Of a stretch of DNA of 22,875 nucleotides, positions 317 through 21,130 are shown one piece after another; position 1 is the first letter of the stretch; each line of letters begins with the position of its first letter. Origin of the DNA: a virus; IMG/VR virus record IMGVR_UViG_3300006846_000058, positions 1 through 22,875 of that record; one strand, written 5' to 3'. Made by a program: the position numbers and the translations under genes. Below the pieces are notes generated by a model. That model was given only the letters and a program-made list of their open reading frames with translations. It had not been told where the DNA came from and did no database searches.

Positions 317-1660
317 TCACCCGAAGGTCGAGTTGAAGGCCGACGTCGATTCGATCCGCATGAAGAACGTCTGGTTCTCGATCAGCGTGCCGTAGTAGCA
401 CTTCCACCCGACCACGCGGAGCTGATTGAGCGGATCGGACTTGTCGGCTTCCTTCAGGTACGTGAACTTCACGTTGTCCAGCATGACCTGCCCGTAAGCG
501 CCACGACCGAAGACGAACGTGGGGTAGACGGTAACGCCGTTGGCCGGCGCCGCCGGCGGCACCTGCGCCGTACCCAGCGCCGTGATCGTCACGGTCTGGC
601 CACCCGTGAGCTGCGTAGCCTGCCCCTGCATCGGCCCCGACGTCGGCCCTGCCGTGGAAAGACCGAGGTTGGCCGGCGTGGTATCGGTCGAGAGGTAAAC
701 GTTGAAAGTGTAGCCGGACACGCTGGGCAGGATCACGTCAACGGAACCGTTCGGGCCGGTAACCGAGATGCCGGACGATACGCCGTAGATGCGCGTCTCG
801 TACTGATTCTGCGTGTCGGAAGCGGTGACCTGAATGTAGTAAGTGCCGGTTGCGAGTGAGCCCGCGGTGGTCGCAGAGCCCTCGATCGCGGTAACGCCGA
901 CGAACGCCGGCACCATGTTCGAAGCGCAGAACCGGATGCTGTTCCACTCCCCGACTTCCGAGTTGTAGAGCCGGTTGATATCGGAGCGGCTCCAAGCCGT
1001 CGCGATCGTGTTGTTCTCCTGCAAGTCGCTGGAGACGAAGGGGTGGAGCACCGCAACGTAGTGCGGCTGGGTGCGCGGGTTGGACGACGCCTTGGCGCCG
1101 CCGGCGGACGCCGCCAGCTTGGTGTCCGTCATCTCGTCGCCCATGTAGCGAGGCGCGCCGAGCGTCACGAGCTGGGAGAAGGCCCGTGTAACCTCGTGTG
1201 GGTTCATGACGTCGCCAGCAATCAGCGCGCCGCGCGAACCGCGCGAGTTCACGTAATTGACTTGCGTTCCGCCAAGCAAGTTGTTGAAAGTATTGCGTTC
1301 CAAGGTTTCCGCCACCTGCAGGCCGACAAGCTCCGTGGCCTTCTTGAAGAGCGGATGCTTGATCGTGAGCTCGGCGACGTCGGTGATTGTCACCTTGTCA
1401 CCCCACTGCAGCGCAGTGGCCGACACCTGCTCCAGCGTCATCGTCTCGCCGACTGGCGGGACGCCTTCGCTCAGGGGTGCGAAGGGTAGCGGGATACGCT
1501 GATACCGCGATGCGGTATAAGTGGTGCCGCGGCCTTTGGGAAGCTCGAGAGGATCGCCAAACTGGTATACCACCAGCTGCCGACGGGCCAGGGGGAGGGT
1601 CTGGTCCGCAATATATGCTTCAATATCGGCAGAAAACTGGGACGCCTGATTGACGGCCAT
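317..1660 (-). CDS. N4-gp56 family major capsid protein with inserted Ig-like domain
   Basis: The product builds the icosahedral head shell. The 447-aa sequence has the N4-gp56 family hallmarks: an N-terminal segment with LARRQLVVYQFGDP (about 25-38), a conserved TYTASRYQRIPLPFAPLSEG region (48-66), then WGDKVTITDVAELTIKHPLF (86-105) and VGLQVAETLERNTFNNLLGG (112-131). The C-terminal part of the fold resumes at about 375 (VYPTFVFGRGAYG) and ends near LIENQTFFMRIEST. Between about 254 and 372 lies a Thr/Ser/Gly-rich beta-sandwich-like segment resembling an Ig or FN3 surface domain. I chose the ATG at 1660 because AAGGAG lies nine bases upstream; an ATG at 1669 directly abuts the same Shine-Dalgarno site and is less likely. 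The scaffold gene is immediately upstream, as usual for capsid modules. Family call is confident; the domain boundary is approximate. Confidence 0.93.
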   Translation of the reverse strand: MAVNQASQFSADIEAYIADQTLPLARRQLVVYQFGDPLELPKGRGTTYTASRYQRIPLPFAPLSEGVPPVGETMTLEQVSATALQWGDKVTITDVAELTIKHPLFKKATELVGLQVAETLERNTFNNLLGGTQVNYVNSRGSRGALIAGDVMNPHEVTRAFSQLVTLGAPRYMGDEMTDTKLAASAGGAKASSNPRTQPHYVAVLHPFVSSDLQENNTIATAWSRSDINRLYNSEVGEWNSIRFCASNMVPAFVGVTAIEGSATTAGSLATGTYYIQVTASDTQNQYETRIYGVSSGISVTGPNGSVDVILPSVSGYTFNVYLSTDTTPANLGLSTAGPTSGPMQGQATQLTGGQTVTITALGTAQVPPAAPANGVTVYPTFVFGRGAYGQVMLDNVKFTYLKEADKSDPLNQLRVVGWKCYYGTLIENQTFFMRIESTSAFNSTFG

Positions 1661-1684
1661 GCTCGTCATCTCCTTGTACGGGCA

Positions 1685-1699
1685 CGGCTTTTACGGCCG
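1685..1699 (-). other. Hairpin with CGTAA-type loop between scaffold and capsid genes
   Basis: On the minus strand, stem CGGC (1699-1696) pairs with GCCG (1688-1685) around the loop CGTAAAA. The loop begins with the same CGTAA as the three hairpins at 2513-2577. It lies in the 44-base gap ahead of the capsid ribosome binding site. It could be an RNA processing, stability or protein-binding element; that role is inference. Confidence 0.45.
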
Positions 1700-1704
1700 A
1701 CACC

Positions 1705-2499
1705 CTAGAGTGGAACCCCTTCCAGACGCTTCTCCGGCGAGTCCTGCTGCCGGCCGCGCTGCGAAGCCGCGTTACTCTTGGCCCCCGCGGGAGCCACCGT
1801 CTGCTGAGCGACCCGTGCCGCCCCCTTAGCCTTCGCCTTGGCGCCCGCGCCGGCTTGCGCCAGCGCCCGATCGCCAATAACCCACTTGAGCATCTCGATC
1901 CGCGGAATGTTCTGCGGAGGAATGCCCTTTGAAGGATTGCCCTGTCGCAGCTCCGCCAGTCTCCGCTCAACTTCCAACTCGTACTTCGCGAACACGGGGT
2001 TGCTTGACACTTTGGCCGAGAAAGCAACCTTATCCGCTTGATCCTGCGCCTGAAAATGCGCCATTCCCAGTTTCTGGTCGAACTCGCGCCGGGCCTTCTC
2101 CAGCTTGTAATCCGACCGCTCTTCCGGCGTCATCAGCGCGAGGCGCTCCGCCTCCTGCTGCTCCGTCAGCTGCTCATTCCGGGTCCGCGTCAGCTCCGCC
2201 AGCTGCCGCTCGACCCGCTCCGCCCGCTCTTCGGCGGCCTTGGTCCGCTCCGCAAGCGCCGCGATCCGCTGCGCGCCGCGGGTAGGCTTCGGCTCCGGCT
2301 CTTCGTCGGCGGCGTCTACGCCGTCCGCGCCGGGTCCGTCGACGTCTTCGGCGCCTTGTCCGTCAGGCTGTCCGGCGGCATCGCTGGACTCGTCGAGCTC
2401 TGTGCTGACTTCGTTTCCGTCCGTCCCGGTATCGTTTTGGGTTGTGGAATCGGGTTGCTCGACATCGGGCGCCTCTTCAGTTCCGTGCACGTCGCTCAT
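1705..2499 (-). CDS. Probable capsid scaffolding protein
   Basis: This 264-aa protein directly precedes the capsid gene, the usual place for the scaffold that guides procapsid assembly and then leaves. The first about 75 residues are very acidic and low-complexity (runs of D, E, G, T). Residues about 76-160 form a charged, heptad-like coiled coil (LAERTKAAEERAERVERQLAEL, then TRNEQLTEQQEAERLALMTPEERSDYKLEKA). The C-terminal part turns basic and Ala-rich (AGAGAKAKAKGAARVAQQ, about 214-231), as expected of a helix that docks on coat protein. Acidic N terminus, central coiled coil and basic C terminus together are typical of scaffolds. The ATG has GAAGGAG six bases upstream. Its own promoter and structured leader lie at 2513-2618. 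No enzymatic motif is seen. Confidence 0.8.
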   Translation of the reverse strand: MSDVHGTEEAPDVEQPDSTTQNDTGTDGNEVSTELDESSDAAGQPDGQGAEDVDGPGADGVDAADEEPEPKPTRGAQRIAALAERTKAAEERAERVERQLAELTRTRNEQLTEQQEAERLALMTPEERSDYKLEKARREFDQKLGMAHFQAQDQADKVAFSAKVSSNPVFAKYELEVERRLAELRQGNPSKGIPPQNIPRIEMLKWVIGDRALAQAGAGAKAKAKGAARVAQQTVAPAGAKSNAASQRGRQQDSPEKRLEGVPL

Positions 2500-2512
2500 G
2501 AACTTCTCCTTC

Positions 2513-2577
2513 GGGGCTTACGGCCACCAGGCGGGGACGACTTACGGTCGTCAATCGGATCAGTCGCTTACGGCGAC
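2513..2577 (-). other. Leader with three CGTAA-pentaloop hairpins ahead of scaffold gene
   Basis: Reading the minus strand from the promoter toward the scaffold ATG: GTCGC-CGTAA-GCGAC (2577-2563), then GACGAC-CGTAA-GTCGTC (2552-2536), then a weaker GGC-CGTAA-GCC (2525-2515). The five-base loop is identical while the stems differ and stay paired, which is a signature of selection on structure. A fourth related hairpin is at 1685-1699. The size (five-bp stem, five-base loop) resembles protein-binding RNA hairpins such as lambda boxB, although the loop is not a boxB loop. Function unknown. Confidence 0.6.
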
Positions 2578-2590
2578 AAGTCGATGTTCC

Positions 2591-2618
2591 AGTGTAGCGA
2601 AGGTGCGCAAAGTGTCAA
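2591..2618 (-). promoter_or_regulatory. Sigma70-like promoter for scaffold-capsid genes
   Basis: On the minus strand the -35 is a perfect TTGACA (2618-2613), followed by a 16-base spacer and TACACT (2596-2591) as -10. It lies in the 130-base gap between the beta-propeller gene stop and the scaffold ATG. Transcription would start near 2584, just upstream of the three hairpins. It would let capsid and scaffold be made in excess over the upstream genes. Host RNA polymerase use is inferred from the consensus match. Confidence 0.55.
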
Positions 2619-2629
2619 CTAGGCGGCCT

Positions 2630-4897
2630 TTACACGATATCACAGTACATAGAACCGTGACCTCTAAAGCCTATGTAGCACCGGCCATAAATGTCCTTAT
2701 CGCCTTCGATTACCGTTATAGAATCATTCATTCCGAGCGGCCAGGTATCGGTGTCAGCGCTCAGAAGCATTGTCGGTTCAGTAAACACCCCATTATCGAA
2801 CCGCCAGATCCCATAACGACGCTTCCACCAACCCGCCACAAAAATGGTTGGATAGCCCCCCACGACTTGGGCTTTGCCGATTCCAAACGCGACAACCGAC
2901 AGCATGTTCGCTATGCTGGTCCAAGTTACCCCGCCATTAACCGTTCGCGAAAATTCTGTTCCCAAAGCCGGATGATCCTCAGGCGTATTATGCCCAGGTG
3001 TTGCAAACAAATGGCCTTCATACCCAGGTACTGCTTTAGCTGAGCGAACCACTAGAGAAAAGTTTAACGGGTAGGGATCACCACCAAGAGCCCAGTCAAC
3101 ACCCCTGTTCGTTGTACGCCAGCACCCCCGACAATTAGGCGTCTGCCCCGACCTATAATTAAACATGTAAAAAGTATTAGGGTTTACTGTGTCCGCAGTA
3201 ATTGTTTTCTTCGGAGTTTGGATGCTGGTAGCCCATCCTGTTTCGCCGGTTGTTAGTGTGTTTGGAATACTAATTACGTCCCACTTAGCTCCATCGTTCG
3301 TAGATATGTACGGCCGCGGCCCCGAAGATGTTGAAGGTATCCAAATGTAAACCCCGTCGTTAATAGCGATCATGTCGTAATTCAGTGGCGTAAACGGATT
3401 GGAAGCGAACACATTAAATAAGTCACCGCCGTTATCCGAGTAGCCGCACCCGTTGGCAGAATTTCCGACGATCACCAACTTGTTTGCGTTTTGTGGGTCG
3501 CGCGCAATTGTGAAGCCGCGCGTCAAAGGCACAATGGTTGGCGCTCTGTATATCGAACTGGGTGCCGTATCGAGATCAGCCATCGGTCTGCGGTAAGCGT
3601 ACTCGTCCCACACCGCTATAAACAAATCTTGTCCAGCTTCGTGGTTCAAATCGTTCACAACTAATTCTTCAATTCCCTTCGAGTTGCACGTCCATGTCGG
3701 CGCCACGCCAACCGTATAAGTTGCTGACCACACGCCTTGCCCCAAACCAATCCATAGTTTGTTTGCAACAAGAGGGTCAAAAACCATCTCAGTAGAAGAT
3801 AGGGCAGCGCCCGCAAGATTTATGATGTCGTCAGCTTGCCAAGGTGAATCACCCGCGGCAAAAGTCTGCGAAGCTTTGCTATGTGTGCTCCAACTACTTC
3901 CACCGTTAGTGGTGAACTCAAAAACCATATCTGCGCGCATGGTGGCAACTTTGCCAACCGCGCTAACATCCACCGCAATTACGTATGTGCTGGTGCCAGT
4001 TCTAATATCCGACCACACTCCAGCTTCGCATTTTGAAACAAATCGGTTAGCCCCAATTAGGTGGGAGATGTAATAAGTACCGGCGCTATCAATTCCAGAA
4101 TTTCTGACTGGTGCAACGACAGTGCCTGACGACAGTACCCACGTAACGCCAGCGTTGGTAGACTTGTAAACACCAACGCCGTAAATGCAAACCCATATGA
4201 CATTAGTACGTCCGTTCGTAGTACCAGAATTTACATCGAACTGCCACTCGCATGCACCGATGCCAGTTCCGGTCGACGGCAAACCTGTTACGTCAGTCCA
4301 ACTTAGTCCTCCGTTGAAAGAAACCTTGGGGAATGAGCCGGGATTGGGAGCGTAGATGACATCAGCGTTGTTTGGGTCGATGCCTATTTTTGGCAACAAT
4401 CGAGTGCCGCCATTAGGACCTGATTGGTCATTAGGATCGAAGTTATCATTGCTCGTCAGCGGGTAGTTCGTAATTCGCGAGCTAACGCCTTTGTCGGTTG
4501 AACGCCAGATCGAATTGTTTCCCTCTACATTTCGATTAGTAAAAACTAATTTATCGCTGTCATCCCAAGCAATACGAGCATCAGCAACGCCGCTATCGTT
4601 GCCAGCATATCCCTCATGCACTGAAATAGCCATTCGCGGCTGAGTACAAATCTGCTCCCAGCTCGATGTGGCATCAACATAGATATAAGCGCCACCAACG
4701 TCAGTACCGGCAAACTTAGAGCCGTCAGAACTGATGCTTAAGTGTGTGACAAAACCGCCGCCGTTGATGGTGACAGGCTTCCACAAAACGGTTTGGAACC
4801 ATTTCTTTTGTGCAAACCAAGCTGCTTCAGCGGACCACAAACTGCTTAAGGTTAGTACTGAAATAGCGGCCAGTAATTTACGTCGTGTGAGTCGCAT
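2630..4897 (-). CDS. Exported BNR/GH74-like beta-propeller protein
   Basis: The 755-aa protein starts with a signal peptide: LTRRKLLA (residues 3-10) followed by a hydrophobic core and an AEA-like cleavage site near 23-26; the TRRKLL pattern is also compatible with the Tat route. The mature part opens with WKPVTINGGGFVTHLSIS and TDVGGAYIY (about 39-73), matching the start of GH74 xyloglucanases and sortilin-like propellers, including the conserved Asp of TDVGG (D66). At least seven Asp-box (BNR) turns follow, e.g. STNAGVTW, TTNGGSSW, STNDGAKW, TTNRGVDW, TVNGGVTW. I do not see the second GH74 catalytic motif (GDIGGF-like), so activity is doubtful. It could be a secreted glycan-binding protein or enzyme, or a tailspike-like receptor-binding protein. 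Its DNA is AT-richer than the terminase and portal genes, suggesting separate origin. Its ATG shares one base with the upstream stop (TGATG). Confidence 0.8.
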   Translation of the reverse strand: MRLTRRKLLAAISVLTLSSLWSAEAAWFAQKKWFQTVLWKPVTINGGGFVTHLSISSDGSKFAGTDVGGAYIYVDATSSWEQICTQPRMAISVHEGYAGNDSGVADARIAWDDSDKLVFTNRNVEGNNSIWRSTDKGVSSRITNYPLTSNDNFDPNDQSGPNGGTRLLPKIGIDPNNADVIYAPNPGSFPKVSFNGGLSWTDVTGLPSTGTGIGACEWQFDVNSGTTNGRTNVIWVCIYGVGVYKSTNAGVTWVLSSGTVVAPVRNSGIDSAGTYYISHLIGANRFVSKCEAGVWSDIRTGTSTYVIAVDVSAVGKVATMRADMVFEFTTNGGSSWSTHSKASQTFAAGDSPWQADDIINLAGAALSSTEMVFDPLVANKLWIGLGQGVWSATYTVGVAPTWTCNSKGIEELVVNDLNHEAGQDLFIAVWDEYAYRRPMADLDTAPSSIYRAPTIVPLTRGFTIARDPQNANKLVIVGNSANGCGYSDNGGDLFNVFASNPFTPLNYDMIAINDGVYIWIPSTSSGPRPYISTNDGAKWDVISIPNTLTTGETGWATSIQTPKKTITADTVNPNTFYMFNYRSGQTPNCRGCWRTTNRGVDWALGGDPYPLNFSLVVRSAKAVPGYEGHLFATPGHNTPEDHPALGTEFSRTVNGGVTWTSIANMLSVVAFGIGKAQVVGGYPTIFVAGWWKRRYGIWRFDNGVFTEPTMLLSADTDTWPLGMNDSITVIEGDKDIYGRCYIGFRGHGSMYCDIV

Positions 4898-5823
4898 CAG
4901 CCACCGATTATCCGACCGCCGCCAGAAGAGGGAGGCGTGATGGTGACGCCGGTGTTTCCGCCCAAATCTAAAGAATTTGTCGCGGTGAAGGTGGCGCCGC
5001 CCGTAAAGGTAACATGGCTAACAGCGGCCCAACTCATCGTTGGTGCGCCAGAAGCAACGCTGATTGTGCCGACTGCTCCGCTCGTCAAAGATGAAGAAGG
5101 CCCTACCCAAATCGGGGCCGAAGACGAACCCGCCCACGTAAAAGCGTTGGTTATGGTCTGTGTTGCTGCGGAAGAAATAACAATCAGGTTTGGCCCGGTG
5201 ACATTCAAATTAGCGAAAGTGTTAGCCCCCGAGATGGAAGTCGGACCGCCACCGGCGTTAGCCGCGATCGTAACTGTGTTGTAAGTCAGACCGCCGCCCT
5301 GAAAATTCTTCACGCCCGCAGATGAGCCTGAAATAACTATCGTAGAAGAATTGGCGTTAAACGTTAAACCTGTTGTTGTGGCAACGTTCCATGGATTGCA
5401 AGAATTTCCGGCAGTGGCTGTAACGGTCAGCGTCCAAGTGCCATTACCCATATTAAGGGTGCGCGTACCTGAGCCTGTCCCACTAAAAGATACACCGCCG
5501 CTTCCCGATAAAGTAACATTGTTGTTGTTGGCTGAAAAATCGAGCGTGCCAGTGAAAGCACCCATCGTAATAGACTGGACCGTAACCGTAGTATTAACGG
5601 TAACAGTGCCCCCGCCCGAACTTCCATCAAACGTAACTGTGTCAGCAGAACCAGGAACAGTCTGCCCACCGGCGCCGCCGGACGTAGCTGCCCAATGTGT
5701 GGTGTCAGCTGCGTCCCAAGTGCCGGTGCCTCCAACCCAAAAGCGTGACGCAGCATTAGCGTCTACGATCAACGCCAACGTGAGAAGCAGCCAACTGGCT
5801 ACACCTAAAATTTTCGTGTTCAT
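4897..5823 (-). CDS. Secreted Gly/Thr/Ser-rich beta-repeat protein
   Basis: This 308-aa protein begins with a clear Sec signal peptide (MNTKILGVASWLLLTLALIV, cleavage near ANA-AS at residue 24-25). The mature protein opens with RFWVGGTGTWDAADTTHW, a motif found at the start of repetitive phage surface proteins, and continues as short repeated beta strands rich in G, T, S, N and V, suggesting a beta-helix or beta-roll. No catalytic motif is seen. I chose the ATG at 5823 because it overlaps the upstream stop as ATGA and begins the signal peptide; an earlier in-frame start (5880) would add 19 residues and lies inside the preceding gene. It is probably a virion-associated or cell-surface protein. 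Family name unknown. Confidence 0.8.
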   Translation of the reverse strand: MNTKILGVASWLLLTLALIVDANAASRFWVGGTGTWDAADTTHWAATSGGAGGQTVPGSADTVTFDGSSGGGTVTVNTTVTVQSITMGAFTGTLDFSANNNNVTLSGSGGVSFSGTGSGTRTLNMGNGTWTLTVTATAGNSCNPWNVATTTGLTFNANSSTIVISGSSAGVKNFQGGGLTYNTVTIAANAGGGPTSISGANTFANLNVTGPNLIVISSAATQTITNAFTWAGSSSAPIWVGPSSSLTSGAVGTISVASGAPTMSWAAVSHVTFTGGATFTATNSLDLGGNTGVTITPPSSGGGRIIGG

Positions 5824-6731
5824 TGCTGCACCCACGCGATGACACCAGCAAGTGGTGTAGCTGCTGACGTGATCAAGCAAAGATCGACGTTAGTGCCCGC
5901 AGTAGCAGCCACAGCTGCAGCGCCGTTGCCGATCGAAAATCCGCCATTTGCTGCGAAATTTGGACCGTTAGCAGCAGTCGTGCCACCGATCACGCCTGCC
6001 GTACCGCTTCCGCATGTGCCGCCCGTGCCTTCGACGATCGCAACGTTGTCCGCCGCAGCCGAAGTCAAAAGCATGTAGCAGATATAAGTTCTTTTTGCAG
6101 CTGTTGGTGCGACGATGCGCGTTGTCGTGGCCGTGGTTATGCTGATGGGCGTATAAGTCTTAGCAACATTTTGACACGGCTCGCTGACTGGATTTTGTAC
6201 GCTCAACACCGCAGCAGCAGGAACGCCAGCCGTACCAGTCGCGAGAGTGCCCGACGTCAAGTTTTGATTATTGCGCTTAGTCAGAGCTACGAGAGTGCAA
6301 GTGCCGTTGTCGGTTGCACATGCAGCATCAGTCGTTGCACCTAATGCGACGTCAGCGCCGTTCGCTATCGTGGTTGCCCCACCAAACGACGTGATCTGGT
6401 TGCCCGAAGCGTCAACAATCGCCACCGTCTGGGAAAACGTCGAACCCAGCGAAAGGCCGGTCACACCACGAAGTGTGCCTCCGACGTTAATTCCATTGTA
6501 GATGCCAGTCGCGGGCACCGCAGCGCCGATCGTTGGGAACGTCAGCGTCGCCGCAATCGTGCCGCTGATACAGAGACTGCCCGTCGTATCGACGCCGATC
6601 GTCGCTGGCGATCCCACGGGGAGCGTACGTGGGGGCGTGCCGCAAGTCGCGAACTGGATCCAGGATTGTGCCTGCGCCGGCTGTGCAAGCCCGATGAAAA
6701 GCAACGCTGCCGCAATCGCCGCACGAATCAT
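5820..6731 (-). CDS. Secreted structural-like protein, unknown function
   Basis: The 303-aa product starts with a signal peptide (MIRAAIAAALLFIGLAQPAQAQS, predicted cleavage after AQA near residue 21). The mature protein is rich in T, A, G and V. It carries scattered cysteines (CGT, SLCIS, DAACATDNGTC, EPCQN, TYICY, GTCGSG, VDLCL), compatible with disulfides in the periplasm or outside the cell. The last about 110 residues (from TYTPISITTATTTRIV) look like a beta-sandwich ending in GVIAWVQQ, a layout I associate with phage-encoded surface proteins. It overlaps both neighbours by ATGA junctions, so it belongs to the same operon as the other two exported proteins. It could be a tail fibre-like or an exported host-modifying protein. 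Confidence 0.75.
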   Translation of the reverse strand: MIRAAIAAALLFIGLAQPAQAQSWIQFATCGTPPRTLPVGSPATIGVDTTGSLCISGTIAATLTFPTIGAAVPATGIYNGINVGGTLRGVTGLSLGSTFSQTVAIVDASGNQITSFGGATTIANGADVALGATTDAACATDNGTCTLVALTKRNNQNLTSGTLATGTAGVPAAAVLSVQNPVSEPCQNVAKTYTPISITTATTTRIVAPTAAKRTYICYMLLTSAAADNVAIVEGTGGTCGSGTAGVIGGTTAANGPNFAANGGFSIGNGAAAVAATAGTNVDLCLITSAATPLAGVIAWVQQ

Positions 6732-6970
6732 GGCCGTTCTCCATACTGCCGGGCTTGCTTCACGAAGTCCTGCCGAAGCGGGAAGACCCGTGCCGCCTGC
6801 TCGAAGTTAAAACGCGCGTCTGCGTACTGCTCCGAACGCCGCGCTGCCCGTTCGAACAGGATCTCGGCGAATATCGACGTGATCGCGTAAAGCGTCCCGA
6901 GCGTGACAAAGCACCCCCGCCATAACAGCGAGAAGAAAGCCTGTGGTCGGGAGATGGAGCGGGAATCCAA
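6728..6970 (-). CDS. Small membrane protein overlapping the O-antigen ligase-like gene
   Basis: This 80-aa frame starts at TTG (6970-6968) with a strong GGAGGG seven bases upstream, and ends in an ATGA overlap with the next gene, which argues that it is real. It has one membrane helix (about 11-37, FFSLLWRGCFVTLGTLYAITSIFAEILF region) and then a charged helical tail with NFEQAARVFPLRQDFVKQARQYGER, resembling a single TPR-like helix pair. It overlaps the 3' end of the ligase-like gene by 164 bases in another frame, a long overlap. It may act with that membrane protein. Function unknown. The alternative is that the ligase-like gene is frameshifted and these are its true C-terminal residues. Confidence 0.6.
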   Translation of the reverse strand: MDSRSISRPQAFFSLLWRGCFVTLGTLYAITSIFAEILFERAARRSEQYADARFNFEQAARVFPLRQDFVKQARQYGERP

Positions 6971-7817
6971 AGCAACCCTCCACGAGAATCGTCAGTAGAA
7001 CAAGACGTTCCGTGTGCATCTTCGCTTGGAAAGCTATCACTATAACCGCAAAAAAAGCAATGGAGCCTATTCCGAGCTCATAAATCAGTTCGAGCGCATC
7101 GTTGTGCAAATGGTTCGTCCCCGGAAAGTCCGTATAGACGGAGCCGAGCCCGTGACCAAAAAACGTGAGCGCGCCGAGCGCATCGCGCCACACCGCGATC
7201 CGGATCGCAACGGACTCGAGCCGATAACCCGTCGCGAGCATGGCTAGCACCGCAGCTGCGATCGCAAGAAGCAGCAACACCGCCGCGGCGCGCGAACGGC
7301 CCCAGAGCCATGCAAACGCGGCTGCCGACACCGCCAGGAGCGGCCCGCGCGCGCCGGTGAGGGCGAGGCACGCTGCCGGTGCGCACGCCAACAGGTACTG
7401 CCGCAGGCACAGCAACCCAACGAGAACCGGCGCCGCGGCTTCAGCGAGGAAATTGGGATTGATGAAAGTCGACCCCGAGCCAAACATCTGAAAGCCTAAT
7501 ACCAAAGCATTAAAGGCTAAGCCCCAGCCCATTCCAGCTAGTACTTTTGGGCTATCCTCCGTGCGCACCAGCGCGAAAACGCCAGCAAGCAGCGAAAACT
7601 TAAAAAGTATGTCTAACCCATTGAAAACATTTGAAGTCCACAACAACGAGACAGCAGCGATCGCCAACACGGCGACAGCGCCCCATCGGTGTTCACGGGG
7701 GCGAATCATCAACAAAGCTGGAACGACGATCGCGAGCAGCGCCCAGCGCGGAGCGGTCGCCGCGCTGTAGAACGGTGGCCACACCAGCACCGTCAGCGCG
7801 AACGCCAAAATGCTCAC
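6807..7817 (-). CDS. O-antigen ligase/polymerase-like (Wzy_C) membrane protein
   Basis: This 336-aa integral membrane protein has about ten hydrophobic segments and a Wzy_C-type region at about 205-255: VAIRIAVWRDALGALTFFGHGLGS followed by TNHLHNDALELIYELGIGS. The R..W..A, GhGlGs and H-HND-E motifs are the family hallmarks of WaaL ligases and Wzy polymerases, which join or polymerise O-antigen on the periplasmic face of the inner membrane. It starts at GTG three bases after the portal stop, with the Shine-Dalgarno in the portal 3' end. The final about 30 residues after the last helix are unlike the family and overlap the 80-aa gene. In phage D3 a Wzy gene changes the host O-antigen and blocks superinfection; a similar role is inferred here. 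Exact substrate unknown. Confidence 0.8.
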   Translation of the reverse strand: MSILAFALTVLVWPPFYSAATAPRWALLAIVVPALLMIRPREHRWGAVAVLAIAAVSLLWTSNVFNGLDILFKFSLLAGVFALVRTEDSPKVLAGMGWGLAFNALVLGFQMFGSGSTFINPNFLAEAAAPVLVGLLCLRQYLLACAPAACLALTGARGPLLAVSAAAFAWLWGRSRAAAVLLLLAIAAAVLAMLATGYRLESVAIRIAVWRDALGALTFFGHGLGSVYTDFPGTNHLHNDALELIYELGIGSIAFFAVIVIAFQAKMHTERLVLLTILVEGCFGFPLHLPTTGFLLAVMAGVLCHARDALRDHVDIRRDPVRTGSAAFGAVRRRAF

Positions 7818-7820
7818 GGA

Positions 7821-10040
7821 TCACCCCGTCTTGCGAGGAAACACCGCGGGATCTTGCAACGAATCCTGAGAAATCATGCCAGGAGGCCCCTGAGTCCGAG
7901 GAGAACCGGGCTGCGCGCCAATCCGAGGGCTGCCGGCAACCCCCGGCGCGGGACCGCCGCCGGGCTCCATTCCACCTGGGACGCCAGGCGCACCCTGCAT
8001 CATCGGCACCTGTGCCTGCATCGCCGCCATCTGCTTACGCTGTGCCTGCTGGATATGTTCGAAGATGTGGGCCTGGAATTTCTTCTGATTCTTGCCCTCT
8101 CCCGTCGCCTGCAGCTGCTGAAGCGCCTGCATGTGGGTCTGCAGGTGCATCTGATCGTCGTCCATGGCATGGGTCGGGACTTCGAAGCCCATCGCCATGA
8201 GCTGGTCTTCTTGCTGCGCCGGCACCGGCATCTGCTTCTCCGGCGAAACGAAGATCAGCGGCGCCAGCCGCGGCCCGAACGTGTTCTCCACGAGCTGCGT
8301 AATGATCGGGACCAGATTGACCTGGTAGCCATTGAGCTGCTGCGGCGGAATGCCCCGGATCACGTTCATCCCGGCGATCTGCTGCTGGATCGCCTGCGCG
8401 TTTTTCGCGCTCTCAACGCCGAGCCAACGGAATTGGTATTTAGTATCAAATTGAACAGGTTCCACTTCCTGCATCTGCGCCTGAACGCCCATCTCGCCGA
8501 ACTGCCGGATGGTGATCGTCTCGTCCCGGTGCTGATGGTCCAATTCAATGAACATCTCCAGCATTGGCGTCAGGATGGCTTCCTCGATCACGGTAACGGC
8601 GTCGGCCGTCGTCAGCAAGTCGACCTGCTGCTCGCGCGCGACGTCGGCCTGGTTCGGCCGGGAGCCCTTGGCCGCCGCCGGCGCCGGTCCCTGCGTGATC
8701 GCCGCCGGTGAGACAGACAGGGTTTGCCCGATCTCAGCCTTGCATTCCCCCACCAACGCAAAACCATCTTTCCACATGTCAGGAAATTTGGCGAACTGGG
8801 TATCCTTCGGCGATGTCTCCCACACCGCGGCGAGGGACAGGATCATTGACCCAACCCGGGGGTTCTTCTCCGGGTCCGTCATCACGATCGGCATCAAAGC
8901 GTAAGCAGCGCTGTCCCATGCTTCATTTACAGCGTCGTTGGCGGCATACTGCATGTCGGCACAAGGCTTTACCTTGCTGATCCCCTTGAAGGATCCCGCC
9001 ACTTTCTCCACCGGCGACGACAGCAGGGGGCAGCGATCCGACCAGTTTGGATTGCGCCGCGCGCCGAGGATCGAGTCCTCTCCGCCGAAGAACACCTGGC
9101 ACAGCCGGCGCTCGCCCTGCACCTTGAGCAAAGTCCAGGTTTCGTAGACCTGGGCGTAGGTTGAACCGCCTGTTTCAGTCTTTATGCCAGCCGCGTCCAC
9201 CATCTTCTTGTTTTTGTTGATTTCTCCGGGCTTGGAGACGCTGCGCATCTCCTGCAGCAGCTTCTCGCCGTCGTCCTTCCGGATCACCTTATCCGCGATC
9301 ATTTGTCGGATCTTGCCCGCGGTCCAGCGCCGGATGATCGTCACGCTGCCGCCGGCAGCGATCGCCTCCTCGAGATCGTCAACGGTCTGGGGCAGCACCA
9401 GCACGTCGCTGTCCGAGATCAGTTCGACCGAGGGAAAGCCCTGCTTGAACTCCTCGTGCTCGATATCTTCGACGGGCTCCGCCGCGGGGTTGGGGATACC
9501 ATCCTCCAGCTCGGGCTCTGCCTTGGTCTTGAACGTGACGTGGCGCGTGCGCTTAACCCACGACACATACACGTTATATTGCCCCTCGACGTCCCCGTTG
9601 CGAACGAGCGCGGGCATGATCTTGGTCCGCAGCTTGGTCTTGCGGACGTAGTGCTCGAGCAGAGCAACCTGCGAATAGGGCACGGTGCCGTCGATCGAGG
9701 TTACCTCGACGTAGCGGCCAGACTGAGGGAAAATCTGGTTGGTGAAACGGGTCTTGCGCGCGTTGATCGCGTTGTGGACGATCGGGACGAAGATTTTGGC
9801 GTTGCCGGAATAGAACTGCTTCGGGCCGAGCTTGCAGTTGTAGACGTCCCAGTAGTCCATCTGCTCGTTGGCACGTTCCCACTGCTCCGTATAGCCGAGC
9901 TCAACTTCGGCGTAGATCTCTTTCAGCTGGTCGCGCACCCCTGCGCGCCGTGAAATGTCGTCGCCACGCGCCGGCTCCCGTCGCTCGTCTTCCTCTTCGG
10001 CGTCGAGCTCGTCGACTTCCTTGGCGTCGTCTTCAGCCAT
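7821..10040 (-). CDS. Portal protein
   Basis: This 739-aa protein would form the dodecameric portal through which DNA is packaged. It directly follows the large terminase gene with an eight-base overlap, the standard order. The N terminus is acidic (about 1-35). Residues about 36-130 contain YTEQWERANEQMDYWDVY and then AKIFVPIVHNAINARKTRFT and FPQSGRYVEVTS, typical of the long portal proteins seen with N4-gp56 capsids. The middle (about 220-420) is the clip/stem region. The last about 120 residues are Met/Gln/Pro/Gly-rich (QAQRKQMAAMQAQVPMMQG, then PG-rich repeats), probably a flexible tunnel or barrel tail. No protease domain is seen, and it is not fused to a capsid protein. Confidence 0.9.
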   Translation of the reverse strand: MAEDDAKEVDELDAEEEDERREPARGDDISRRAGVRDQLKEIYAEVELGYTEQWERANEQMDYWDVYNCKLGPKQFYSGNAKIFVPIVHNAINARKTRFTNQIFPQSGRYVEVTSIDGTVPYSQVALLEHYVRKTKLRTKIMPALVRNGDVEGQYNVYVSWVKRTRHVTFKTKAEPELEDGIPNPAAEPVEDIEHEEFKQGFPSVELISDSDVLVLPQTVDDLEEAIAAGGSVTIIRRWTAGKIRQMIADKVIRKDDGEKLLQEMRSVSKPGEINKNKKMVDAAGIKTETGGSTYAQVYETWTLLKVQGERRLCQVFFGGEDSILGARRNPNWSDRCPLLSSPVEKVAGSFKGISKVKPCADMQYAANDAVNEAWDSAAYALMPIVMTDPEKNPRVGSMILSLAAVWETSPKDTQFAKFPDMWKDGFALVGECKAEIGQTLSVSPAAITQGPAPAAAKGSRPNQADVAREQQVDLLTTADAVTVIEEAILTPMLEMFIELDHQHRDETITIRQFGEMGVQAQMQEVEPVQFDTKYQFRWLGVESAKNAQAIQQQIAGMNVIRGIPPQQLNGYQVNLVPIITQLVENTFGPRLAPLIFVSPEKQMPVPAQQEDQLMAMGFEVPTHAMDDDQMHLQTHMQALQQLQATGEGKNQKKFQAHIFEHIQQAQRKQMAAMQAQVPMMQGAPGVPGGMEPGGGPAPGVAGSPRIGAQPGSPRTQGPPGMISQDSLQDPAVFPRKTG

Positions 10041-14995: not shown

Positions 14996-15024
14996 AGGAT
15001 GCACACGTAGCGGGGGAGTGTCAA
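14996..15024 (-). promoter_or_regulatory. Candidate late leftward promoter
   Basis: On the minus strand TTGACA (15024-15019) is followed after 17 bases by CATCCT (15001-14996), a poor -10. It is placed just upstream of the leader hairpin and the first late gene. The -35 is perfect but the -10 matches only three of six, so a phage activator might be needed if it is used. Confidence 0.25.
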
Positions 15025-15302
15025 GTTTGTGATTGTTTATGGCAAAGAAGGAGGGGTTATGGAGCCATGCGTTTTAGGTATGTTTCGTCGCTAAAAAGCC
15101 ATAATCACTTCTTTAAAAAGCCTTTAGTTTTGTGAGATTTTTTTCTTAATTCAAATAAATACAATAATACCATTTAATTTTGGACTGAAATTCGCGGTAT
15201 TTAAAAATCTGAATGATTTCAATCGAGATACTAGCTAGCTGGGAATTTAGGGGTGGGTGCTAGGTAGCTTATTAGAGGAGGCGAATTTTGAAAATTGAAG
15301 CG

Positions 15303-15444
15303 GCTAGGAATATATGGTCTAAAAATTTACGAAAACGGGGTCGGCACCCTCGATTTTCCCTGAGTTTCGAACTCTGCCACAATAATTAACGCGAATTACT
15401 GCCTCGCGCGGAGGTATCTAATTGACACACGCTAGGAATAAATG
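15303..15444 (+). repeat. Spaced direct repeat GCTAGGAATAWATG
   Basis: GCTAGGAATATATG (15303-15316) and GCTAGGAATAAATG (15431-15444) differ at one base and are 128 bases apart in the gene-free region. The first follows TTGAAA at 15288, 17 bases before TATATG, and the second follows TTGACA at 15422. They may be promoter or activator sites; the spacing differs between copies, so this is uncertain. Confidence 0.4.
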
Positions 15445-15547
15445 ACATTTAACGCAATTTCGGTGCACTAGGCTGTGCAGTGCGGCGCACAATCGCGGAG
15501 AATAATCTATTTTGCTGCGGTATTCAGGTGCGATACGTTTAGAATAA

Positions 15548-15572
15548 CATGCTATTAACCGATTTTAGCATG
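15548..15572. repeat. Inverted repeat CATGCTA / TAGCATG
   Basis: CATGCTA (15548-15554) and TAGCATG (15566-15572) form a seven-bp inverted repeat with an 11-base spacer, about one helical turn from arm to arm. A second small one follows: ATGCA-AGAA-TGCAT near 15587-15600. These look like candidate operators; no protein can be assigned. Confidence 0.35.
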
Positions 15573-15797
15573 GTTTAATCTTTCCCATGCAAGAATGCAT
15601 TGCCAGAAATATAGTATCCAACATCTTAGCCGGCGGCGCTAAGCCCATGGGATTGCAGAAGAATCCATCCAGGGACAGCCTATAATATTAATTTTCCAAA
15701 ACAATAGGTAATAGGTCTTGCTGGGCATGTGCCCAGTGGTTGGGCACATGCCCTCCGCTCTTATGGGGTATCCTTCCGGCGCTGCTAATAAGCTAGG

Positions 15798-15933
15798 CAT
15801 TGATATCATTGAACTTTTTACTAGCACGAAATCGGGCACACGAACTATTATTGCGCGACAATGGTACTATTGTATTTATTGTGCCCACACTGGGCACTGC
15901 GCCGGCGCAGTGCCCGCCATTGATATCATTGAA
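15798..15933 (+). repeat. Direct repeat CATTGATATCATTGAA
   Basis: The 16-base sequence occurs exactly at 15798-15813 and 15918-15933, 120 bases apart, interleaved with the GTGCCC sites. Each copy contains the palindrome TGATATCA, so it may bind a dimeric protein distinct from the one bound at GTGCCC. Confidence 0.6.
15851..15878 (+). promoter_or_regulatory. Candidate promoter of the XRE regulator gene
   Basis: TTGCGC (15851-15856), a 16-base spacer and TATTTA (15873-15878). The expected start point would fall inside the palindrome at 15881-15897, so a protein bound there would block transcription. The hexamers are only fair matches. Confidence 0.3.
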
Positions 15934-16014
15934 GAATTTGTGTGCCCATTTGGGCACTTGTGCCCGCAGCCTATTTTTGCTAATTACGTGTGCCCGCGAT
16001 TAAATAGGTGGAAA

Positions 16015-16503
16015 ATGGATGCAAAGACATTGAAATCAACACGTGAGCTCCTAAAACACACGCAAGCCAGCTTTGCCACCCTCCTGGGCATTGGCCGACG
16101 CGCCCTGATTCGCTACGAAAGCGGTGAGCGTCCCGTACCCGACAACGTGGCGCGGCGCCTCAAGACGCTCCCGCAGCCCAAGGCGGTATTGGCGCGCAAT
16201 GAGGGGCAAGTCACACCGGAGCGCTTCCCCCGGCTCTACACGCGCATTGGCAAAGGCGCGAAGCAAGACACTCCAGGCCAGTATCATCCCTTCAACCTGT
16301 TTCCGGAGCTGCCGTGGTCACGCGACGCCAGCGGCGCAATCGTAGCGGATTGCTGCCCTGCAGTTGTCTTGTTCACGGAACGCTACGCGCAAGCCTGCGA
16401 GGCGCGTTACGCGGCCGATGTCGCGAAATGGGGCTCTAACAGTAGGCTTCCGCCGCCCACCTTCACGCTCGAGCCCGACAATCCTGTGGATAACTCGAAA
16501 TAA
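16015..16503 (+). CDS. XRE-family helix-turn-helix regulator
   Basis: The 162-aa protein has an N-terminal HTH of the XRE/MqsA-like type: LKSTRELLKHTQASFATLLG (5-24) and IGRRALIRYESGERPVPDNV (25-44), with the recognition helix around GIGRRALIRYESG. The remaining about 100 residues include FPRLYTRIGKG and HPFNLFPELPW, and I cannot place them in a family; they may form a dimer or ligand domain. The ATG at 16015 has AGGTGG three bases upstream. The frame stays open upstream to 15718, but that stretch is the operator array and has no good start. It is the first gene of the rightward arm and probably controls the early/late switch through the GTGCCC sites. Confidence 0.8.
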   Translation: MDAKTLKSTRELLKHTQASFATLLGIGRRALIRYESGERPVPDNVARRLKTLPQPKAVLARNEGQVTPERFPRLYTRIGKGAKQDTPGQYHPFNLFPELPWSRDASGAIVADCCPAVVLFTERYAQACEARYAADVAKWGSNSRLPPPTFTLEPDNPVDNSK

Positions 16504-19170: not shown

Positions 19171-19316
19171 CGCTTCTGCAAAAACTCGAGCGGGAAGTTA
19201 AGCGGCTGGATCGCGAAGTGCGGGCGTCGGTCTTATCCTACAGCTACGCTGACCGCAAAGCGGACCAGCGCGAGTTGCTGGAGCAGGCAATCGCGGCGCT
19301 CCGATGCAAATCGTAA
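19167..19316 (+). CDS. Short coiled-coil protein, 49 aa
   Basis: The ATG at 19167 overlaps the previous stop (ATGA) and GGAGG lies about eight bases upstream. The product is almost entirely helical and charged: TLLQKLEREVKRLDREVRAS, then DRKADQRELLEQAIAALRCK. It overlaps the polymerase start by 13 bases, which suggests coupling of the two. Confidence 0.62.
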   Translation: MTLLQKLEREVKRLDREVRASVLSYSYADRKADQRELLEQAIAALRCKS

Positions 19317-21130
19317 CCCTCGATTTCGAGACTTATTTCGACGACGAGTACACGCTTAAAAAATTAAGCACTGAAGCCTATATCCGTGACTCGCGCTTCG
19401 AGGCGCTAGGCTTGGGCGTGCGCTTCGTTAACGGCGAGCTGCGGTATTTTCCCGATCCTGACGAGTTTCTTCACCACATGCGGGAAGAGCCATCTAAGTT
19501 TGCCGTTCTCTGCCACCACGCCCACTTCGACGGTTTGATTCTCTCCCATCACTACGGAGTGAAGCCCCATGCGTGGCTGGACACGCTTTCAATGGCTCGC
19601 CTTCTCCTCGGCAATCACCTATCTGTCTCTCTGGATAGCCTTGCTCGCCATTTTGGGCTCAGCGCTAAATCTGTCCCTTACGACCTCTTTCGGGGCCGGC
19701 ATTGGGCTGACCTATCTCTTGCTGCGCAGCGCGAGGTAGCAAACGGCTGCCTCCACGACGTCGCCCTCACTTGGGACATCTTTAATAAACTGGCGCCGTC
19801 CTTCCCCGTGGAAGAGTATCCCGTGGTCGACGAAACGATTCGCATGTTCACGGAACCTCGCCTTGAGGCCGATATCGATCTCTTGGGCAAAGTATGGAGC
19901 GAAGAGAATGAGCGTCGTCGAGCGGGTCTGGCTGATCTCGGTGTCAGCGATAGCGATCTACAATCTAGCGATAAATTTGCTGATCTTCTCCGCGCTGCAG
20001 GAGTGGAGCCAGCGACTAAAGCTGGAAAAAACGGACCCATCTACGCCTTCGCCAAAACCGACGAGTTCATGAAGCAACTGCTCGAGCACGATGACGAACG
20101 CGTGGCGCTGCTCGCCGCTGCCCGGCTTGGGATCAAGAGCACGATCGACCAGACCCGGGCGGAACGTTTGGGCTGGATGTCCAGGCGTGGATCTACGATG
20201 CCGGTCTATCTCAGCTACGCAGCCGCGCATACCACACGCTGGGGCGGTGGGGATAAAGTGAACTGGCAGAACTTCAGGCGCGTCGATAAGAAATCGGGCA
20301 AGGCGTACATCCGCCAGGCGATCAAGGCGCCGGCGGAGCACGTGATAATCAAGGCGGACAAATCGCAAGTGGAATGCCGCTTTTTGAATATGGTGGCGGG
20401 CCAGTGGGACGTAATTGAGCGCTTCGCAAAAAAGGAGGATCCCTATGTCGGAATTGCAAGCAAGTTCTACGGACGGCCTATTACGCGAAGCGATGAAGCT
20501 GAGCGAGGGGTTGGTAAACAGCTTGAACTTTCATGCGGCTACGGTGCAGGCGCTAGTACCATTGTCCGCACGGCAGCGCGCGGGACTTATGGCCCTCCAG
20601 TCAAGCTTACTGAGAGTGAAGGACTGCTTGCACGAGATTTGTATCGCGACACACACCCCGCCGTCGTGCAGCTCTGGAAGCAAGCGGGAAGAATCATTGC
20701 AGGACTTGCGGGAACGACAAGCCCTATTAGGTGGGGAGTCCTGACCGTACATTCGAACGCAATTATTCTGCCTAACGGCTGTCCCCTCCACTACCCCGAG
20801 CTCGAGTACCACCGCGACGTCGAGACCGGTGACGAGTTCTGGCGCTACCGCACCCGCCACGGCTGGGCGAAGCTGTACGGCGGCAAGCTCGTGGAGAACG
20901 TAATCCAGGCGTTGTCGCGCGTAGACATGTCCCAAACCATTCTGCGATTGCGGGCACGGGGCTACCGCGTTAGCCTGATGGAGCACGATGCGCTCGCGAT
21001 CGTCGCCCGAAACGATTCGCAGCTTGACAAACATGTTGAAGTCGTTAAGGCTGAAATGAGCCGGTCGCCGACGTGGTTGCCTGGCATTCCGCTGGACTGT
21101 GAAGTAACCGTAGGAGAACGGTATGGCTAG
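19304..21130 (+). CDS. Family A DNA polymerase with 3'-5' exonuclease domain
   Basis: This 608-aa enzyme would replicate the phage genome. The exonuclease half shows Exo I TLDFETY (5-11), Exo II CHHAHFDGLIL (70-80) and Exo III CLHDVALTWDIF (149-160, Asp152); the usual Exo III Tyr four residues before the Asp is Gly here. The polymerase half shows TTRWGGGDKVNWQNFRR (310-326), motif A IIKADKSQVECRF (348-360, Asp352), motif B RGVGKQLELSCGYGAG (401-416, Lys405) and motif C SLMEHDALAIV (557-567). Motif C has HDA where most family A enzymes have HDE. The length suits compact phage polymerases without a 5' nuclease. It overlaps the preceding 49-aa gene by 13 bases and the next gene by eight. A candidate nested gene lies at 20445-20744. 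Confidence 0.93.
   Translation: MQIVTLDFETYFDDEYTLKKLSTEAYIRDSRFEALGLGVRFVNGELRYFPDPDEFLHHMREEPSKFAVLCHHAHFDGLILSHHYGVKPHAWLDTLSMARLLLGNHLSVSLDSLARHFGLSAKSVPYDLFRGRHWADLSLAAQREVANGCLHDVALTWDIFNKLAPSFPVEEYPVVDETIRMFTEPRLEADIDLLGKVWSEENERRRAGLADLGVSDSDLQSSDKFADLLRAAGVEPATKAGKNGPIYAFAKTDEFMKQLLEHDDERVALLAAARLGIKSTIDQTRAERLGWMSRRGSTMPVYLSYAAAHTTRWGGGDKVNWQNFRRVDKKSGKAYIRQAIKAPAEHVIIKADKSQVECRFLNMVAGQWDVIERFAKKEDPYVGIASKFYGRPITRSDEAERGVGKQLELSCGYGAGASTIVRTAARGTYGPPVKLTESEGLLARDLYRDTHPAVVQLWKQAGRIIAGLAGTTSPIRWGVLTVHSNAIILPNGCPLHYPELEYHRDVETGDEFWRYRTRHGWAKLYGGKLVENVIQALSRVDMSQTILRLRARGYRVSLMEHDALAIVARNDSQLDKHVEVVKAEMSRSPTWLPGIPLDCEVTVGERYG
20445..20744 (+). CDS. Candidate nested gene inside the DNA polymerase, 99 aa
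   Basis: In another forward frame within the polymerase, an ATG at 20445 has the strong Shine-Dalgarno AAGGAGG six bases upstream. It opens 99 codons: MSELQASSTDGLLREAMKLS, EGLVNSLNFHAATVQALVPL, a helical SARQRAGLMALQSSLLRVKD stretch, then a Cys/Ser-containing segment and a charged SLQDLRERQALL end. The composition looks like an ordinary helical protein. Over the same 300 bases the polymerase uses noticeably more A- or T-ending codons (GGA, ATT, GCA, CTT, GAA) than just before and after. No family is recognised. The polymerase residues KKEDPYV at this spot are common in related enzymes and by themselves create part of the purine run, so chance is possible. Confidence 0.42.
   Translation: MSELQASSTDGLLREAMKLSEGLVNSLNFHAATVQALVPLSARQRAGLMALQSSLLRVKDCLHEICIATHTPPSCSSGSKREESLQDLRERQALLGGES

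Follow-up and report, generated by a model that had tools for sequence, protein, structure and literature searches.

What does a phage gain from a dozen copies of one short sequence packed in front of a single small regulatory gene, and which protein reads them? Many relatives measure 40-47 kb, so the window examined here, a virus record of 22,875 bases, amounts to roughly half a genome. Its leftward genes, at 1-15 kb, include those for a major head protein, a scaffold-like protein, the large terminase and an endolysin; its rightward genes start at 16,015 and include those for an XRE regulator, a family A DNA polymerase and a PD-(D/E)XK nuclease. The intergenic region of about 1 kb that separates them has a G+C content of 0.434, against 0.50-0.64 elsewhere in the window, and the repeats, at 15723-15995, form its right end (Table 1).

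Exact GTGCCC or GGGCAC hexamers occur 21 times in the 22,875 bases, and 10 of the 21 fall within 15729-15995. Two half-sites with one mismatch each, leftward at 15723 and rightward at 15748, bring the array to twelve. When its 273 bases were shuffled 5000 times on a dinucleotide basis, the mean was 0.31 half-sites and the maximum 3; the densest hexamer cluster in 60 block-shuffled windows reached at most 8 per 273 bases, compared with the 10 observed. The remaining 11 copies outside the array show no excess over the chance level.

A previous sequence-only reading of this DNA had described about twelve half-sites in 273 bases, two palindromes, a nested pair of inverted 13-mers, and spacers of 2, 3 and 5 with single sites in between. 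All of this was confirmed. The two palindromes lie at 15881-15897 (spacer CAC) and 15942-15957 (spacer TT); the 13-mers at 15723-15735 and 15741-15753 are 100% complementary, and their inner arms make a third dyad, GTGCCCA-GTGGT-TGGGCAC. That reading overlooked a perfect 24-bp palindrome at 15892-15915, with the halves GGGCACTGCGCC and GGCGCAGTGCCC, and two exact copies of a second element, CATTGATATCATTGAA, starting at 15798 and 15918. Half-site orientation is mixed, with most copies inverted, centre distances run from 6 to 86 bp, and several half-sites are unpaired. The excess of sites that had been proposed is supported to the extent that the array gathers more of them into one stretch than the three of a classical operator. 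The accompanying suggestion of filament-like binding is not established, because irregular spacing fits independent or cooperative dimers equally well.

Table 1. Positions of the control-region features, the neighbouring genes and two regulator genes from related phages
Feature	Location	Strand	Remarks
Divergent control region	15001..16014	.	AT-rich, largely noncoding, about 43% G+C; between leftward late and rightward early genes
Distal cluster, four half-sites	15723..15753	.	GGGCAT GTGCCC AGTGGTT GGGCAC ATGCCC; nested inverted 13-mers
Second element, copy 1, CATTGATATCATTGAA	15798..15813	+	also in control regions of relatives with other operators
Lone half-site GGGCAC	15834..15839	-	between clusters
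Dyad GTGCCCACACTGGGCAC fused to the 24-bp palindrome	15881..15915	.	three half-sites
Second element, copy 2, CATTGATATCATTGAAGAATTT	15918..15939	+	also in control regions of relatives with other operators
Dyad GTGCCCATTTGGGCAC plus half-site GTGCCC	15942..15965	.	half-site at 15960-15965
Final half-site	15990..15995	+	about 20 bases upstream of the XRE start codon
XRE/HTH_3 regulator, 162 aa, predicted operator binder	16015..16503	+	ATG at 16015; helix 3 GRRALIRY
Family A DNA polymerase (PolA)	19304..21130	+	rightward early/replication module; query for finding relatives
XRE gene of L004	986-1549		natural helix-swap candidate, paired with L029
XRE gene of L029	2791-3378	-	natural helix-swap candidate, paired with L004

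The gene downstream of the array, preceded by a ribosome-binding site (AGGTGG, 16006-16011), encodes the window's only match to Pfam HTH_3 (28.1 bits, cut-off 23). Its helix-turn-helix core is modelled at pLDDT 93-98, and in profile comparison P22 c2 and 434 Cro are among the closest proteins of solved structure. When the full model was used in a structure search, the HTH part alone matched and all hits fell short of E 0.001. Aligned by eye, three arginine positions of helix 3 presumably correspond to the 434 repressor contacts Gln28, Gln29 and Gln33, and arginine at these positions would fit a G-rich half-site.

Counterpart arrays in related phages

No homologue of the XRE protein was found in the phage and viral-contig collections searched. 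We therefore sought relatives through the DNA polymerase and terminase, which yielded 101 distinct stretches including the window, most of them with PolA relatives; for the same reason the window's own pairing of regulator and array is argued by analogy. Several relatives contain dense dyad arrays in the same position upstream of an XRE gene, each with its own sequence: GTATCA in L062, GTAGCA in L108, GTACCA in L048, TGATAA in L058, TAAGCC-N3-GGCTTA in L049, GCTATA-N4-TATAGC in L004, and TGTAAS in L029 and L079. Dyad spacing is fixed in L049, unlike the variable spacers (2, 3, 5) of the window. The XRE gene stands directly behind the array in L062, L108, L049, L048, L004, L029 and L058, but not in L079, where, as in L127, it lies about 0.9 kb past the array.

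An unbiased test gave the same picture for most loci. In 9 of 11, one hexamer was overrepresented in the 350 bp upstream of the XRE gene (p 0.001-0.004, 1000 shuffles), with 10 copies of the top hexamer in the window, 13 in L108, 11 in L062 and 9 in L049; L129 and L056 failed this hexamer test, at p 0.09 and 0.07. The arrays are patchily distributed. Scanned blind, the AT-rich regions that precede the polymerase yielded arrays in 15 of 56 loci, although one of the 15 (L113) is a low-complexity repeat. None occurs in L095, L039 and L042, the relatives closest in the polymerase (61-66%).

The absence of the sites from homologous phages had been named in advance as a result that would speak against the proposal. 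The relatives do lack a GTGCCC array, so in the literal sense this is what we found; it misleads, however, because several of them hold equivalent arrays of other sequence at the same position. A search of viral contigs with GTGCCCAN{2,5}TGGGCAC gave mostly single dyads among the matches listed, of which only two, L188 and L196, were dense or informative. The GTGCCC sites of L196 precede an XRE gene with helix TTRNMLVKLERG; no phage combining the window's operator and helix was present among the matches listed. L188 has eleven GTGCCC half-sites at 2673-2962, in largely noncoding DNA, partly tandem (GTGCCCAGT per 9 bp) and with inverted copies as well. L247 contains five GTGCCCAAATGGGCAC-type palindromes spread over 9 kb (620-9890).

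The second element behaves differently from the half-sites, in that ATTGAWATCATTGARSAATT is common to relatives with different operators. Its core, TTGAWATCATTG, has 13 matches in 1.6 Mb compared with 0-1 in shuffles, 11 of the 13 lying in AT-rich control regions (10 phages). The long form of the ATTGAWATCATTGARSAATT element occurs in 28 viral contigs of 30-62% G+C, mostly in noncoding DNA and often in unrelated phages, and near-copies are found in noncoding DNA of Rhizobium phage RHph_TM27A and its relatives. We considered whether ATTGATATCATTGAAGAATTT could encode a peptide, IDIIEEF; this was rejected, since an in-frame stop stands two codons ahead of several copies and most copies lie outside open reading frames. 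An iterative motif model of the ATTGATATCATTGAAGAATTT element was also dropped after it drifted to AT-rich sequence.

Array motif and recognition helix

When half-sites were counted across the control regions, the resulting matrix was near-diagonal, each region being rich mainly in its own half-site; the seven GCTATA in L062 lie largely inside a CTATA-rich stretch upstream of the L062 array. TGTAAS is the only array motif common to several loci, with 13 copies in L029 (enrichment p 0.0002), 10 in L127 (p 0.0002) and 4 in L129 (p 0.007), and in all three helix 3 reads SRQA[VI]I[NK]W. The C-terminus of the L129 XRE protein has no similarity to that of L029. Conversely, the L004 and L029 proteins are 70% identical in the C-terminus and 54% in the HTH region, yet L004 has helix SRLTVFNW, with eleven GCTATA and one TGTAAS. 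In these loci the site thus follows the helix rather than overall relatedness. This covariation was judged on eleven loci without phylogenetic correction, some starts (L127) being picked by eye.

The earlier proposal that the XRE protein is the binder is thus supported, by analogy, by covariation of site and helix in the relatives. Since the motif tracks the XRE recognition helix, the neighbouring XRE protein most likely uses the array as its set of operators. Recognition by a host regulator, or a structural role for the DNA as a cruciform or terminator, would leave the XRE protein out altogether. The perfect 24-bp palindrome might suggest this, as might single GTGCCCA-N2-5-TGGGCAC dyads, which are widespread in viral contigs among the matches listed. 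One would not expect a host protein, however, to require a site that changes from one related phage to the next, or to track the helix of a phage XRE protein; moreover, an Rfam search gave no match and no terminator-like sites were found inside the array. We therefore consider such a host-regulator or structural role very improbable.

Closely packed short repeats are also found in the replication control regions of P4 alpha and iteron origins, and an iteron-type origin had been suggested for this array. In such an origin the repeats would be bound by a DUF927 protein of about 950 amino acids, or by another early protein, and the AT-rich region would unwind. The AT-rich noncoding region does adjoin the replication module, and the ATTGAWATCATTGA element is common to relatives in the same control region. 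In L065 and L112, furthermore, an array lies beside a gene for a Prim-Pol/VapE-like primase-helicase, with no adjacent XRE gene, which recalls P4-alpha origins. The window's copies, by comparison, are mostly inverted and irregular rather than in-phase direct repeats of uniform spacing, and the motif tracks helix 3 of the XRE protein, not a primase. About 40 of these loci have the DUF927 gene downstream of the polymerase (L108 17629-20529 and relatives), whereas XRE genes and arrays are patchy; any DUF927 gene of the window's own would fall beyond the limits of the record. Even where phages have unrelated arrays, their DUF927 proteins can be aligned from end to end, the C-terminus as well; the last 150 residues show 0.29-0.41 identity in such comparisons, below the centre of the protein but with no clean switch. 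Given mostly inverted copies, irregular spacing and the lack of a clean specificity switch in the conserved replication protein, we do not favour an iteron origin and regard it as quite unlikely here.

The aligned flanks of L065 (5269-5567) and L112 (5370-5650) are 78-97% identical while their repeat arrays are unrelated (CCTTACAC versus TTGCACC). These two loci are possibly P4-alpha-type origins with switched specificity.

A candidate early switch and its known counterparts

The operator reading raises the question of which promoter would be controlled. The array had been said to overlap a candidate promoter, but this is weak at best: a sigma-70 scan found none inside the window's array, and a relaxed scan gave only poor sites at 15855-15882 (+) and 15897-15869 (-). 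Two relatives are clearer. L062 and L058 have 12-of-12 sigma-70 promoters (TTGACA-N16-TATAAT) directly upstream of the XRE gene, and the operator copies of L062 both abut the promoter and lie within it.

Overall, we think it probable, by analogy with the relatives, that the downstream XRE protein uses the array as its operators and is a Cro-like autorepressor, encoded at the head of the early operon. An XRE dimer would recognize GTGCCC(A) half-sites, chiefly as inverted pairs, in the distal (15723-15753) and proximal (15881-15995) clusters, which lie about 130 bp apart. With these clusters occupied, the rightward promoter ahead of the XRE gene and replication operon would be shut, and perhaps a leftward promoter too. 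Through cooperation or looping, the many sites could give a steep, graded or dose-dependent response. Binding, repression and cooperativity are what we infer from the arrangement, and autorepression of the early promoter is the most economical reading of it.

A related idea keeps the XRE protein as the binder but makes it a CI-like immunity repressor of a temperate phage, silencing the prophage. The diversity of operators does resemble heteroimmunity, and a tyrosine integrase was seen in 2 of 20 records (which may be incomplete) and a resolvase-type recombinase in 4 of 26. Most records, however, show no integrase gene; all that a scan of bacterial genomes brought up were MAG contigs of 11-83 kb, with no integrated prophage demonstrated among them; the XRE protein has no recognisable cleavage or oligomerisation domain of the CI type; and the gene heads a same-direction early operon, the position of Cro rather than of a divergent CI. 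Lysogenic repression by this protein is accordingly rather unlikely in our view, and we retain the Cro-like autorepressor.

Across related phages the cassette of XRE gene and operators is gained or lost and shifts in specificity, much as immunity cassettes do, and it might confer superinfection immunity. We offer as a tentative suggestion, which may well prove wrong, that these mostly non-integrating phages swap a cassette of an XRE gene and a private array of up to 14 half-sites, changing specificity faster than the rest of the genome, for phage-versus-phage exclusion or timing outside classical lysogeny. As most of these records show no integrase gene, operator diversification without lysogeny becomes testable. 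The relatives supply ready-made pairs of XRE helix and operator, including large site arrays, on which the evolution of XRE specificity and possible steep switching by many dyads can be tested directly. Through such pairs, too, the DNA target of an unstudied phage regulator could be read from the adjoining array.

That a recognition helix fits dyad operators at an early promoter belongs to the textbook account of phage regulation. Like the OR-OL systems of lambda, P22 and 434, and like N15 and phiKO2, the window combines an XRE-fold regulator with inverted half-sites whose sequence, judged by a few related loci, is tied to the recognition helix; published work on Cro proteins describes a correlation between helix and operator (Hall et al. 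2005, as cited in PMC4997575). In lambdoid and telomere-phage operators the half-sites sit over the early promoter. The dyads of the window end about 20 bases before the ATG; the promoter there is weak, and those of L062 and L058 are perfect. There are six operators in lambda and five in phiKO2/N15, divided between OR and OL (PMC4997575); the window instead has twelve half-sites in one 273-bp stretch upstream of one gene. Unlike lambdoid switches, it has variable half-site spacing and no divergent CI partner that we could see in the window. Because there is one HTH_3 gene and the leftward side consists of late genes, we do not class it as a lambdoid switch but only as resembling the Cro half of one.

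Two other systems invite comparison. The stoperators of Cluster A mycobacteriophages number up to about 30 and are spread genome-wide, predominantly in one orientation (PMC6550527). As here, sites are many per genome and the motif varies, in their case by immunity group, but stoperators are asymmetric 13-bp sequences, monomer-bound and distributed genome-wide, and the window has symmetric dyads in one region (PMC6550527, PMC9283540). TgrL of Caulobacter phage phiCbK is likewise a phage-encoded XRE transcription factor and is expressed early; it has been studied for direct repression of many host genes, whereas the sites of the window cluster in the phage's own control region (PMC10688885). What is distinct here is the packing of up to 14 half-sites into one stretch, with no divergent partner repressor in the window and a patchy, hypervariable distribution across this uncultured phage group.
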